From NCBI GenBank assembly GCA_003246265.1, contig QKAU01000020.1, positions 1 through 41,534 on the forward strand: a DNA stretch of 41,534 bases. The letters are read 5' to 3'. This DNA is from Kiritimatiellales bacterium. GTDB taxonomy: Bacteria; Verrucomicrobiota; Kiritimatiellia; Kiritimatiellales; Pontiellaceae. Each line of letters opens with the position of its first letter. The stretch's first letter is position 1. Of the stretch, positions 3,762-40,346 are shown one piece after another. The notes under the pieces were generated by a model that searched no databases, had not been told where the DNA came from, and saw only the letters and a list, made by a program, of their open reading frames with translations. Both the position numbers and the translations under genes were made by a program.

Positions 3762-4577
3762 GTGAGCAGATGCAACATTCCCGCAACCCTCCTTGCGGGA
3801 ATGTTCTTTTTTACCGCCTTTGTCCGGGCGGATGCGCTAGGGCTGGCCACCGAGCTCATGCGGCAGAACGAGTGGGAACTCTGCCGCCGCGAATGCCGCC
3901 GCGCGCGGATGGAGAGGGTCGGACCGGCCGAGCGCCTCCTCCTGCTCGAGACCGTGGCCTCGATCCGGATCGGGGCGGATCCGGCCGCCTGCATCCCCGT
4001 GCTCGAGGGGATCGTCTCCACCAATGCCGACCGCCAGGCCACGGCCATCGCCTCCTACGAGCTCGGACGCCTGCAGTGGCAGGCCGGGGCGCCTGCAGCG
4101 GCCCTCGACGCCTTCGAGCTGGCGTTCATGACCACCACCAACAAGACCCTCTTCCTGCATGCGTCGTGCGCGATGTTCCAGTTGCTCCAGGAGAACCGCT
4201 CCCTGAAGAAGGGGCGCGAGGACCTGGTCAGCCAGATCACCACATCGCGCGCCGAATACCATGCGGCCCTCTTTGCCGCCACGAAGAAGCCAGACCCCGC
4301 AATAGACCGGCCCGCCACCCCCAGCTGGATCATCCGCTTCTACCGTTCGCAGATCAGTCCGGCCATCGGTGACCGCTGCGTACTCCATCCAAGCTGCTCG
4401 GAATACTACACCCAGACCCGGCACAAGCACGGTCTCCTGGCCATTCCGATGATCGCCGACCGCTTCATCCGCGAACCCGACGTCAGCAACGCCAAGGCCC
4501 GCCCGGTCGTCATGCCCGGCGGGCGGATCTACTACGCCGACCCGGTCGAGGACCATGACTTCTGGATGACCCCATGA
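3762..4577 (+). CDS. Exported TPR protein with C-terminal YidD domain
   Basis: The C-terminal third (about residues 186-240) is a YidD domain: FYRSQISP, then RCVLHPSCSEYYTQTRHKHG and a later PDV segment. Plain YidD proteins are about 70-100 residues, lie at the inner face of the membrane, and help YidC/Sec insertion. Here the domain is preceded by about 150 residues of TPR-like helices and a signal peptide (h-region IPATLLAGMFFFTAF), so the protein is probably exported, which is unusual. The start is uncertain: ATG 3729 lies inside the previous gene, GTG 3762 gives the best signal peptide, and ATG 3801 gives a shorter one; none has a good ribosome site. Its stop overlaps the next start (ATGA). 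Confidence 0.8.
   Translation: MSRCNIPATLLAGMFFFTAFVRADALGLATELMRQNEWELCRRECRRARMERVGPAERLLLLETVASIRIGADPAACIPVLEGIVSTNADRQATAIASYELGRLQWQAGAPAAALDAFELAFMTTTNKTLFLHASCAMFQLLQENRSLKKGREDLVSQITTSRAEYHAALFAATKKPDPAIDRPATPSWIIRFYRSQISPAIGDRCVLHPSCSEYYTQTRHKHGLLAIPMIADRFIREPDVSNAKARPVVMPGGRIYYADPVEDHDFWMTP
3774..3812 (+). terminator. Strong terminator hairpin inside the start of the TPR-YidD gene
   Basis: A perfect 13-bp stem (3774-3786 with 3793-3805) with a 6-base CCCTCC loop is followed, after one C, by six T residues (3807-3812). It ends the transcript of the small secreted-protein gene 25 bases after its stop. It also lies within the signal-peptide codons of the next gene, so translation of that peptide would open the hairpin. 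Confidence 0.85.
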
Positions 4578-34502: not shown

Positions 34503-35850
<1,348 letters not shown>

Positions 35851-35858
<8 letters not shown>

Positions 35859-37035
35859 GGGCAACCTCCCTTCCCGGGGCGTTCAGCAGATAGAGCCGGG
35901 CGTCCTCGCGGGGGAAGCGCAGGGTAAGCCGGGTTCCGCGGCCGGGCTCGGAATTGATTTCGATCTCCCCGCCATGGTCGCGCATGATGCGCTGGACAAT
36001 CATCATGCCCAGTCCCGTTCCCTCGGCCTTGGTGGTGTGGTACGGCTCGTAGATCGCCCCCAGCTTTTCAGGGTCGATGCCCGGTCCGTTGTCTTCGAAG
36101 ACGGCGCTGACGAACCGGTCCGATCCCTGGACCCAGATCTTCAGGATGCCGCCATCGTCCATCGCCTGCAGGGCATTCTTGATGACGTTGAAGAAGACCT
36201 GCTTGACCTGCGTCTCGTCGACCGGCACCGGCGGCACCGGATCGGGGTATTCCGTTTCGACCAGCATGCGCCGGTCCCGGATCTCGTGCCGCATCACCTC
36301 CAGGATCTCGTCGATGAGGGCCGAAAGGTCGTTGGGCCGCCTTTCGGGCATCGACGGCCGCAGCGCCTTGAGGAACTGCCTGATGATGGCATCCAGCCGG
36401 GACACCTCCTTGCGGGAGACCTCGACCAACTCCTTGAGTTCGTCCCGGACCAACGCGTCGGAGAGGTAGCCGATTTCGCGGTCGAGCAGCTGCAGATGGA
36501 TATTGATCGAGTTGAGCGGGTTGCCGATCTCGTGCGCGACCCCGGCCGCCAGCAGGCTCAAGGCTTGCAGCCGCTCCGATTCGATCGATTCCGCCGTGCT
36601 TTCGCGCTCGCGGGTCACGTCGCGGAAGATGACCACCGCCCCCTCCTCCGCTTCGTCCACCGCCTTGAGCGGCACGACGTAGAACTCCATGAAGCGGTGC
36701 TGGGGGTAGGTGATTTCGATCTCGCGGCGCGCCAGCTGGCTCCACTCGTATTCGTCCAGCTCCAGCACCAGGTCCCAGTGGATCTCCTTCAGGTATCGCC
36801 GGATAGGCACTCCCTGCGCCGTCTCGAGCCGAAAGCCGAGAAAGCGCTCCGCCGCCCGGTTGGCATAGCTGATCTGCGCCTCTGGATCGAGGACGATGAT
36901 TCCCTCCTCGAGGGCCTGGAAAATGGTCTCCATCAACCCTTTTTCCTTGGCGAGGCGCAGGAAGTAGGATTGGAGGCTTCCCTTGTCGAGATGGTCGAGC
37001 CGATCGACCAGCTTGTCGAAGAATCCTGGTTTCAT
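35851..37035 (-). CDS. PAS-domain sensor histidine kinase (NtrB type)
   Basis: A 394-residue soluble kinase that pairs with the NtrC-like regulator. No membrane segment. An N-terminal helical part (1-40) leads to a PAS domain (about 40-145, ALEEGIIVLDPEAQISYANRAAE). Then come the HisKA with H168 (AGVAHEIGNPLNS) and an ATPase domain with NVIKNALQAM, EDNGPGIDPE, TTKAEGTGLGM. The signal is likely cytoplasmic. The ATG at 37035 is kept; 132 bases separate it from the CcsA stop, and this gap holds the 38-bp palindrome. Confidence 0.94.
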
Positions 37036-37105
37036 TCCGTTCTATGTGCCACAAAGACGCACATTCTGCAACATTGATCTTTCCCCGCTGTCATGGGCCA
37101 GCTTG

Positions 37106-37143
37106 TCCCCATTCTCACACTTCATGAAGTGTGAGAATGGGGA
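37106..37143. repeat. Perfect 38-bp palindrome
   Basis: Two 19-base halves are exact reverse complements about a centre between 37124 and 37125, with TTCATGAA in the middle. Outer pairs are TCCCC and GGGGA. It lies between the ccsA stop (37168) and the sensor-kinase start (37035), both minus strand. No T-run follows on either strand, so it is not a normal terminator. It could be a protein-binding site or a REP-like element of the 'TGTCCCC' kind. Confidence 0.85.
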
Positions 37144-37167: not shown

Positions 37168-38928
37168 CTAGGCGCGGCTCTTCCAGTGGCGTTCGGGTAT
37201 GGCCCCGGCAGCGCAGATCACCAGCTGGGAAGCCGCGAAGAGCAGTAGCCAGAAGCTGGCGGAATCGGTGAATCCATAGGAGTGGAGCCCCACTCCCAAC
37301 TGGTTGACGCCGAACCAGGACCAGGCGGTTACGACATTGCCGAACACGGCCATGATCGCAAAACCCCGGTCATGGACCATCTTCCCGTAGCAGGCGTGCA
37401 GCATGATGGCATTCCAGATCACGATGAGGAGCGCGCCGTTCTCCTTGGGATCCCAGCCCCAGAAACGACCCCATGAGTCGTCGGCCCACAATCCGCCCAG
37501 CACCGTTCCGACAAAGCTGAAGAGCAGGGCGAAGCAGGTGGTGCCGTACATCATGCGGTACATGCCGTCGCGGGTGGTGGCGTCGAGGCGGCGGGTCAGC
37601 AGCCCCGACAGGACGAAGAAGATGGCGATGGCACCCGCCACAAAGGTGGCCATATAGCCAAGATTGATGGTGATGACGTGGGTGGCCAGCCAAAAGCGAG
37701 TATCGAGCACGGCGCGCATCTGCTCCATGGTGTCGCCGTCGCCAGCCAGGAAGTGCGCGATGAGCAGCGTGGCGAAGCCCGCGATGCCGGCCACCAGGTT
37801 GCCGATTCCTTCCGCGCGCCGCCGGAACGCGTATTCGATGATGATGCCCGAGGCGACGGCCCCCCATCCGATGAAGATGGCGGTCGAATAAAGGTTGGTG
37901 ATGGGCGGATAGCCGGAGAGGAAAACGCGGGCGACAATGGCGAAGGTATGAGGAACAAAGGCACAGACCATCAGGGTCCGGGCGGCGGCCAGCATCGCCT
38001 CCTTGCGGAACAGCCAGCCGAAGCAGCTGACGACGAAGACCAGCAGGTAAACCTGGGCGGCCTTGATGAAGGCTCCGAGCCGGTTGTAGAAAACCTCGAA
38101 CGAGAGCTTGTCCAGCACCTCTGGATTCGCGGCACGGAGGTCGGCGACATAGGCGTCGAGTTCCCTGTTGAACGTGGCGGCGTCCCCTTCGCGGTAGGCG
38201 GCCAGCATGCCGCCGAAGCGGCCCGCCAGCGGGTCGGCCTCCATTCCGTGCCCCGCAGCCTGCATGGAGGGATGCCCGGCAAGCAGGGCGCTCATGAGCG
38301 GCCGCCAGCGGGGGTTGCCCTCGGTGGGGGGCACGACCAGCGGCAAGGAGTAGCTTTCGAGCTGCATGTAGCGCTGGGCGGTGGCCATGAGCTGCTCGGA
38401 GGGAATGTCGCGGGGATCCTCGAACGAGGAGAGGATGTTCTGGTAGAGGTAGAGCTTGTTGGCGGTCTTGATGACCTGCCGGTCGTAGAGGTCGCGGCGG
38501 GCGCTCTCCTTGCCGAAGGCCGAACGGGCGGCGGCGTCGAGCCGTCCGAGCGCCGGCAGGATTTCGCGGTAGGAGTAGCGGAAGTGGTTCTGCTCCTCCA
38601 GGCCGAGATCGGAGAGGAGATCGATGCTCTCGATGCGGACCACGGGATAGTCGAGCGCCTCGGGCCGCCCCGCCAGGTTGTCGAGGAGCCATTTCACGGC
38701 CGACACCCGCTCCCCGTCCAGCTTCGTGGTCTGCTTGCCGGAGAGAACAGTCAGCTGGTTGCGCGCCAAGGTATCGATCGGCTTCTTGCGGCCGTCGAAC
38801 TTGACGGGAAGGCGGCCGAAGGCGTCGAGGTGGAACTCGCCTGGCGCCTCCCTGGGCGGCGTGGTTCCCGCCATGAAGAACCAGGCGGCGAAGAGGACGG
38901 TGGCGGCATGGAGCAGGGTGCGGCGCAT
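37168..38928 (-). CDS. ccsA: CcsA/CcsB-type cytochrome c biogenesis protein with N-terminal domain
   Basis: A 586-residue System II haem-handling membrane protein. After a signal-like helix (residues 4-20) there is a periplasmic domain of about 260 residues, and then about eight membrane helices from residue 290. The WWD haem-binding motif is WGRFWGWDPKENGALL (about 485-500), with external histidines in FATH/HVITINLGY and LHSYGFT. Plain CcsA is about 320 residues, so the N-terminal part is extra, as in several PVC and Bacteroidota members. ATG 38928 overlaps the ResB stop (ATGA); the longer upstream frame is a shadow of resB. Confidence 0.92.
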   Translation of the reverse strand: MRRTLLHAATVLFAAWFFMAGTTPPREAPGEFHLDAFGRLPVKFDGRKKPIDTLARNQLTVLSGKQTTKLDGERVSAVKWLLDNLAGRPEALDYPVVRIESIDLLSDLGLEEQNHFRYSYREILPALGRLDAAARSAFGKESARRDLYDRQVIKTANKLYLYQNILSSFEDPRDIPSEQLMATAQRYMQLESYSLPLVVPPTEGNPRWRPLMSALLAGHPSMQAAGHGMEADPLAGRFGGMLAAYREGDAATFNRELDAYVADLRAANPEVLDKLSFEVFYNRLGAFIKAAQVYLLVFVVSCFGWLFRKEAMLAAARTLMVCAFVPHTFAIVARVFLSGYPPITNLYSTAIFIGWGAVASGIIIEYAFRRRAEGIGNLVAGIAGFATLLIAHFLAGDGDTMEQMRAVLDTRFWLATHVITINLGYMATFVAGAIAIFFVLSGLLTRRLDATTRDGMYRMMYGTTCFALLFSFVGTVLGGLWADDSWGRFWGWDPKENGALLIVIWNAIMLHACYGKMVHDRGFAIMAVFGNVVTAWSWFGVNQLGVGLHSYGFTDSASFWLLLFAASQLVICAAGAIPERHWKSRA

Positions 38929-40346
38929 CAGGCATCCCTCCGGCGATAGCGGTTGAACGACTGCACGAACTGGGCGGCCATGCCGACGAAGACGATCATG
39001 CAGGAGAGGTAGGGAATCATCCAGGTGTCGTTGCGCACGACCTGGAGGATGGTTCCGCTGTCGTCGGGCATGTAGCCCGACTGGTAGAAGGTGCGGCGGG
39101 CGTAGCGCAGGGGGTTGTTCATCCAGATGCGCAGTTCGCGCTCGATCCCTTCGCCCTCGTTGACCAGCAGGATGCGGCTGGAGAAATCCTTGGGGACCTG
39201 CGTGCCTTCGTACTTCTCGTGGACGAAATCGAGCAGCTTGATGGAGAACGGGCTGCCGCCGGGGGAGCGCAGGTATTCGCGCCGGTAGCGGAAGTAGGCG
39301 GTGAGCTCCTTGCCGCCAGCCATGATGCGCGTAGGCATGTCCCACTGCTGGTTGACGAAATTGGGGTAGAACCAGAGCGACAGGATGTAGCGGCCGTGGG
39401 ATTGGCCCGACGACCGGTCGAACAACTCGACGTCGACCGACGGGGCGTTGCGCGCGCTGGTCGTCCCGCTCACCTCGCGCTGCTCGGCGACGTAGAGGCG
39501 CGACCCATACCCCTCATAGGCGGGATAGGCCTTGCGCAGCGCCTCGGGAAGTCCGTCCAGCGGCCGGGGGCTGTTGGAGTTGACCATGTAGCGGTGGACC
39601 TTGATGGTGAACGGCAGGGTTTCGACATCGATGGTAGCGTCGTCCTCCAGCTTGTGCTGCGGAATCACCGTCACCACGTCGCGGTTTGGGTCCGATGCAT
39701 CGATGAAGGCCAGCTCCAGCTGCTGCGAGCGGTCGACGTAGTTGACGGTCTCGCCCTCCTTGATGGTCATGGTGGCCTCGACCGCAAACAGGGCCGTCAG
39801 GAATTCGCCGACCAGCAGGAAGAGGATGCCGCCATGCAGCAGCACCAGCCCCGCCCGCTTGCGGTAGAGCAGGACGCATGCGGCATAGAGCACAACGGCG
39901 GCCAGGGTTCCGCGGCCCAGCCGGAAGAAGACCCGCCAGAAGGCGTCGTCCTCGGTGGCGGCCACCTGGGCGGTGCCCCAGCCCAGCATGACGCCGGCGA
40001 CCACCAGCACGCCAAGGCCCAGCAGCGCCAGGCCGGCCAGCAGCCGCCCCCCGGACGCGTTGACCTTGAACGAGGCCCAGTGGACGGCGATCAGGTTGGC
40101 CACCAGCAGCGTGCCGATCAGGAAGCCGCCGGGAAAGGGGATGCGGATACCGGGGATGTCCCATGCGCGCGGGAAGAGCACCGGCAGGTCGATCATGGCG
40201 ACGAAGCAGCGGAAATACTGGTCCATCACCGTCCAGATGCCCTTGTCGACCTGCGCCAGGGTGCCGACGAACACCAGCACCATGCTCAACGCCAACAGGA
40301 CCACGGTCAGCTTAAGCGAGAGGAAAAAATCGAGGACCTTCTTCAT
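38928..40346 (-). CDS. resB: ResB/Ccs1-like cytochrome c biogenesis protein
   Basis: A 472-residue System II partner of CcsA. It has four membrane helices: LKLTVVLLALSMVLVFVGTLAQ, FLIGTLLVANLIAVHWASF, LALLGLGVLVVAGVML, and a late YLSCMIVFVGMAAQFVQSF. A large periplasmic beta domain lies between. The opening DKGIW... and a FYQSGYMPDDSGTILQVVRND segment before the last helix are ResB features. The ATG at 40346 has GGGAG 5 bases upstream (a GTG at 40352 is weaker). It follows the lipoprotein gene by 48 bases. Confidence 0.9.
   Translation of the reverse strand: MKKVLDFFLSLKLTVVLLALSMVLVFVGTLAQVDKGIWTVMDQYFRCFVAMIDLPVLFPRAWDIPGIRIPFPGGFLIGTLLVANLIAVHWASFKVNASGGRLLAGLALLGLGVLVVAGVMLGWGTAQVAATEDDAFWRVFFRLGRGTLAAVVLYAACVLLYRKRAGLVLLHGGILFLLVGEFLTALFAVEATMTIKEGETVNYVDRSQQLELAFIDASDPNRDVVTVIPQHKLEDDATIDVETLPFTIKVHRYMVNSNSPRPLDGLPEALRKAYPAYEGYGSRLYVAEQREVSGTTSARNAPSVDVELFDRSSGQSHGRYILSLWFYPNFVNQQWDMPTRIMAGGKELTAYFRYRREYLRSPGGSPFSIKLLDFVHEKYEGTQVPKDFSSRILLVNEGEGIERELRIWMNNPLRYARRTFYQSGYMPDDSGTILQVVRNDTWMIPYLSCMIVFVGMAAQFVQSFNRYRRRDA

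Follow-up and report, generated by a model that had tools for sequence, protein, structure and literature searches.

The 38-bp perfect palindrome at positions 37106-37143 of the window, as we call the whole 41,534-nucleotide stretch of DNA analysed here, is very probably an operator-type site of a family of regulators that carry two winged-helix (wHTH) domains in tandem. The evidence in hand consists of a family of related palindromes, their adjacency to regulator genes, covariation between regulator residues and site bases, and the rewriting of the site upstream of ntrB among congeners. The regulator family is undescribed and, among the genomes sampled, occurs almost exclusively in a single class of Verrucomicrobiota.

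A sequence-only reading of the window had described a perfect palindrome with error-free 19-base halves, far beyond chance, placed between ccsA and an NtrB/NtrC pair about 70 bases before the kinase gene, and this description was confirmed throughout. The two 19-base arms, TCCCCATTCTCACACTTCA and TGAAGTGTGAGAATGGGGA, abut without a spacer, and about 7e-7 perfect palindromes with a half-length of at least 19 are expected by chance in the whole window (64% GC), in which the runner-up has a half-length of 8. The palindrome lies 24 bp past the stop codon of ccsA and 70 bp before the start codon of ntrB. All three neighbouring genes are on the minus strand and were assigned from their open-reading frames with Pfam support: the cytochrome c assembly gene ccsA (37168-39345, start codon uncertain; Cytochrom_C_asm), which is upstream on the strand of ntrB, the ntrB-like sensor kinase gene proposed as the target (35851-37035; PAS, HisKA/HATPase_c), and the ntrC-like gene for a sigma-54 response regulator (34503-35864; Response_reg, Sigma54_activat and HTH_8). 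Within the 38-mer, which was recognized by inspection and the chance calculation and, like the two features nested in it, has no assigned strand, the proposed operator of the tandem-wHTH regulator is the 32-bp CCATTCTCACACTTCATGAAGTGTGAGAATGG (37109-37140), the consensus of single sites in the host genome as obtained from copy alignment and positional pairing; the three base pairs at either end of the 38-mer are private to the window copy and fall outside this consensus. The 18-bp core CACACTTCATGAAGTGTG (37116-37133) was defined by genome count. When pairing within a copy's own arms was compared to pairing between copies, dyad symmetry exceeding sequence conservation reached about +/-16 bp, a span that would suit a two-headed protein binding as a dimer.

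Folded as RNA, the palindrome reaches -40.4 kcal/mol (z -6.0), and such stability just past the ccsA stop codon, together with the existence of sites between convergent genes elsewhere, would suit an mRNA hairpin after ccsA that serves as a terminator or 3'-end protector. The hairpin lacks a T-run, however, on either strand, and a scan for intrinsic terminators did not report 37106-37143, bearing out the earlier judgement that a normal terminator was unlikely here. The conserved bases match a DNA-binding protein, also where the sites lie in 5' regions and within the dus reading frame, and the symmetry stops at a distance that corresponds to a protein-sized footprint. An extended RNA hairpin formed by the outer arms was likewise rejected, since own-arm pairing above the between-copy level ends at about +/-16 bp. 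A hairpin function is therefore an improbable account of the palindrome; mRNA 3'-end protection, as proposed earlier, may hold as a side effect, but the match to a regulator is not predicted by it.

The genome-wide count of the half-site proposed in the sequence-only reading was run, and the palindrome recurs rather than being the lone copy named there as the adverse outcome. The core is present in 7 exact copies plus three variants in the genome of the window (G000; 3.0 Mb, 81 contigs), in which a reversed control pattern occurs 0 times. Across 346 genomes of the class, the copies belong to a family of the form CACACTT-NNNN-AAGTGTG with fixed spacing and a centre that is typical of the genome: CATG in G000, CCGG in G002, CGCG and TGCA in G144 (114 copies in a 2.7-Mb genome), TGCA and CTAG in G064 (34 copies), and TCGA and CYGG in G061 (25 copies). 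The CGCG subfamily of G144 (75 copies of a 26-30 bp version) makes up the bulk of the palindromes in that genome (L042-L056, L231-L250). An exact scan of named genomes produced one further carrier, the Verrucomicrobiota MAG JAUXCB010000004.1, which its identical flanks equate with a relative from the same order (G041). In the host genome, sites are found ~70-92 bp before ntrB, a PAD_porph (agmatine deiminase-like) gene and an unknown gene, as well as before the regulator gene, a placement that fits operators, and none of the convergent-gene intervals of this genome holds a site.

Palindromes that are dispersed and mostly intergenic, at up to 114 per genome, in genomes where Y1 transposase genes also occur, recall the second explanation offered earlier, in which a Y1/RAYT transposase spreads a mobile, REP-like palindrome. 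In REP/RAYT (TnpA-REP) systems, dispersed palindromes of 20-40 bp form genome-specific families and copies of each family flank its cognate gene (PMC2817692, PMC3733652), and both features are found here. The cognate gene in the present system, however, encodes a wHTH DNA-binding protein and not a Y1 transposase, and 29 of 30 Y1 loci have no palindrome within ~1.5 kb. The GTAG/CGTC tag is not enriched: 10 of 105 sites have it at one end of the palindrome, fewer than the ~21% seen with shuffled flanks. Paired copies conserve their spacing and not their spacer, which copying would preserve (compare PMC3733652), and orthologous sites hold their position while their bases change. This explanation did not hold up, and we consider it highly improbable. 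An origin of the paired copies as MITE or REPIN elements was rejected for the same constant spacing with unrelated spacers.

Copies of the palindrome immediately precede genes encoding a ~190-aa protein (PTLWRTCRVLANxxRL...LTAFTHPRR) that defines a regulator family with the signature PTLWRTCRVLAN and two ArsR-like winged-helix domains per chain. Both halves of the protein are recognized by wHTH models of the ArsR/MarR type (HTH_5/HTH_20/MarR; PF01022), the model NF033788 matches two stretches per chain in 5/5 proteins scanned, and no metal-sensor equivalog model scored above its own cut-off on the scanned regulators. The host-genome member (G000:C8:22223-22768), recognized by the family signature and the winged-helix models, is unlinked to the window and has two sites of its own upstream, 59 bp apart, with the same CATG centre as the window copy. 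An AlphaFold model of this 183-aa protein (pLDDT 95.8) contains two winged-helix domains, whose recognition helices span residues 46-58 and 141-153; the first wing connects strands 63-67 and 70-74. No structural match over the full length was found, and solved relatives, among them ArsR structures, align over one domain with a best TM to the query of ~0.40. The family was detected in 103 of 346 class genomes (~30%) by a search limited to scoring the ~9 top candidates of each genome, which makes absences soft. When genomes were drawn evenly from the phylum, only two carriers turned up outside the class, and both of these also have an upstream palindrome, one of them imperfect. Plasmids gave weak ArsR matches only and phages gave none. 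A specific curated model for the family was not found, and the literature on Kiritimatiellia/Verrucomicrobia palindromes and on tandem ArsR proteins contained nothing on it.

The association between regulator and palindrome extends across the family. Upstream DNA (300 bp) was taken from 102 regulators and submitted to a combined test of symmetry and consensus, which in its lax form detected a palindrome upstream of 94 regulators, compared to 37 of 510 shuffles and 3 of 102 coding stretches, and in its strict form upstream of 63 regulators, compared to 0 of 510 shuffles and 0 of 102 coding stretches. The general form of the operator is n3-CANACNT-nnnn-ANGTNTG-n3, with variants that include CATACATTGCAATGTATG, CATACCTCTAGAGGTATG, CAGACTTTTAAAAGTCTG and TTACACGTTTAAACGTGTAA, and many of the regulator-associated palindromes abut or overlap the start codon. 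Where a genome holds several subfamilies, these tend to have regulators of their own: each of the three dispersed subfamilies of G064 has a regulator paralog with the same subfamily upstream, both subfamilies of G061 pair with their own regulators, and the TGCA subfamily of G144 matches the C61 regulator. No cognate regulator was detected for the 75-copy CGCG subfamily of G144 among the best ~9 candidates scored per genome.

Setting the protein alignment against the bases of the half-site, numbered from position 1 next to the dyad centre, revealed covariation that is concentrated at putative DNA-contacting residues. The strongest link is between position 7 and the tip of the first wing (permutation z 13.8, uncorrected for relatedness), where a wing Arg accompanies C in 41 of 46 proteins and a wing Met or Leu accompanies T in 13 of 14. 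Position 4 covaries mainly with residues in or beside helix 1 (permutation z up to 11, again uncorrected for relatedness) and position 10 with the N-terminus of helix 2 (z 9.9, relatedness uncorrected), with the pairs Pro-T, Ser-C and Trp/Asp/Glu-G; a helix-2 Arg accompanies G at position 11 in 7 of 8 cases. In the AlphaFold model, the covarying residues are the N-termini of both recognition helices and the wing tip. Independent contrasts for position 7, drawn on a tree built without the covarying columns, are few: 4.4 were in the same direction and 0.0 opposite of 6 on average (p ~0.06). Several marks of an ArsR-type autoregulated operator are present: a cognate wHTH protein of the ArsR superfamily, a dyad in the gene's own 5' region and residue-base covariation. 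Since sequence alone suffices to match each regulator with its own site, the family provides natural data from which a protein-DNA recognition code could be derived, with wing Arg-C and wing Met/Leu-T at position 7 and helix-2 Arg-G at position 11 as candidate rules.

The site upstream of ntrB was compared across the genus, in which 26 of 28 genomes have an ntrB ortholog. A palindrome is located 76-90 bp upstream of ntrB in G000, G005, G023, G024 and G027, five of ~20 readable congeners, with a second palindrome further up in G027. Its bases differ between genomes in the manner of the genome's own regulator site: CACACCTTTAAAGGTGTG in G005 has a core identical to that of its regulator L230, CATACATTGCAATGTGTG in G023 is identical to its regulator site L141, CATACATTATAATGTGTG in G024 has one mismatch compared to L132, and CATACATTGCAATGTATG in G027 is identical to L130. 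In a 24-bp comparison, the regulator of the same genome ranked first, sometimes tied, in four of the five genomes, and fifth in G005. An ntrB site was found in 5 of 11 genomes with a regulator and in 0 of 9 readable genomes without a detected one.

The location 70 bp upstream of ntrB had also prompted the suggestion of an enhancer-like site for the sigma-54 activator next door, an NtrC-type protein. Of that proposal, the idea of a regulator binding site is retained, but the regulator is most plausibly the unlinked tandem winged-helix protein (G000:C8), which has two copies of the site in its own upstream region, and not the adjacent NtrC. A separate NtrC-like dyad is present at the start of ntrB. 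This dyad, TGTGCGTCTTTGTGGCACA (37045-37063, minus strand), has the form TGYGCC-N4-GGCACA, which we take to resemble an NtrC site, and is located just before the start codon of ntrB in nearly all congeners, with and without the palindrome. Of the two elements, this dyad is the more plausible target of the adjacent sigma-54 activator, as a putative NtrC autoregulatory site. The palindrome, in contrast, is absent from most congeners with the same ntrB, and copies elsewhere adjoin unrelated genes and the tandem-wHTH gene, making an enhancer role for it extremely improbable. The NtrC enhancer reading is thus disfavoured, as are the REP/RAYT and terminator readings.

A second orthologous site lies inside the reading frame of dus, encoding tRNA-dihydrouridine synthase, where a palindrome with genome-specific bases occupies equivalent codons in about nine congeners (L005:1500-1526 on G000:C54 in the host genome; congener loci L299-L313). 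Peptides encoded by the site include SHFMKC; in G020 two sites stand in tandem, and G009 has a perfect site with no regulator detected among the best ~9 candidates scored per genome. Conservation of the coding sequence (SHFxKC) was rejected as the origin of the dus copy. It appears that DNA rather than peptide is under selection here, because the peptide varies or is absent in other congeners while the bases track the palindrome type of the genome. Together, the ntrB and dus sites are a clear example of regulator and sites shifting specificity in concert at orthologous places.

In the mechanism that we propose, a regulator homodimer would sit on the dyad with the domain 1 recognition helix reading half-site position 4, the domain 1 wing tip reading position 7 and the domain 2 recognition helix reading positions 10-11 in the outer arm, resulting in a symmetric footprint of ~28-32 bp. 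Binding and this dimer geometry are both putative. From the position of the sites, we infer that the regulator would repress its own gene through the palindromes upstream of, and often overlapping, its start codon, and that it would modulate the ntrBC pair through the site located 70 bp before ntrB. A change of specificity in the protein would then be followed by changes in the bases of its sites at orthologous loci.

The same protein might instead bind these sites in order to organise the chromosome, in the manner of MatP/matS, ParB/parS or nucleoid proteins, with any effects on transcription being incidental. The layout of sites in some genomes is consistent with this. Pooled over five genomes and with genes called by a home-made gene caller, ~28 sites are at divergent promoters, ~42 between tandem genes and ~24 between convergent genes, so that convergent-gene sites are as frequent as those at divergent promoters; among intergenic sites of G027, the same caller placed ~7 between convergent genes and 3 at divergent promoters. 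The dispersed sites of G027, G144 and G064 show no promoter bias, several pairs lie between convergent genes, and some sites, such as that in dus, are intragenic. Of the 33 sites in G027, 24 occur in pairs 58-60 bp apart whose spacers are unrelated, which suggests protein-protein contacts of fixed geometry. Such pairs, 58-60 bp from centre to centre with AT-rich, unrelated spacers, are found at L334-L353 (G027) and L006 (G000), and the pair spacing in other clades is about 82, 87 or 100 bp. Against this explanation, several sites in G000 are within ~100 bp of gene starts (ntrB, the PAD_porph gene, the unknown gene and the regulator) with 0 in convergent intervals, a site precedes 94 of 102 regulators, as it does for autoregulators, and in the single-contig genome G024 the sites are not clustered in one domain. 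We consider chromosome organisation unlikely as the primary role, and the operator-type site is preferred, though a chromosome-organising role, or regulation independent of promoters, may apply to some members. A broader formulation is tentative and somewhat doubtful: an undescribed Verrucomicrobiota protein-palindrome system in which each tandem-wHTH protein would mark its genome with a handful to more than 100 near-exact palindromes, often as 59-bp pairs, in promoter and convergent regions, the sites following changes of specificity, and which may organise the chromosome besides regulating.

As operators of winged-helix proteins, the sites resemble those of the ArsR/SmtB repressors (HlyU, SmtB, CzrA, BigR, NolR), which share a wHTH per half and a palindromic operator beside the repressor's own gene. 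The present regulators differ in having two wHTH domains in one chain and an operator of ~28-32 bp, of which domain 2 apparently reads the outer arm. MatP/matS and ParB/parS each consist of a single protein with near-exact palindromic sites across the chromosome that are not tied to promoters; here, in contrast, the fold is wHTH, the sites are mostly upstream of the regulator's own gene and no clustering is seen in G024. Paralogs with private operators are also known from LacI-family repressors, each of which has its own operator that can be distinguished by comparing relatives (PMC2329647). In contrast to these, the present family has a different fold, two DNA-reading domains per chain and a distribution almost confined to one class of Verrucomicrobiota among the genomes sampled.

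Two further observations were made in the course of this work. Positions 3774-3805 of the window hold an inverted repeat with perfect 13-bp arms around a 6-base loop (AACATTCCCGCAA/TTGCGGGAATGTT) that has no relation to the palindrome family. One site of the host genome adjoins a multihaem cytochrome gene (L007:807-1775; Cytochrome_C7, MtrC/MtrF-like), which suggests extracellular electron transfer in this organism.
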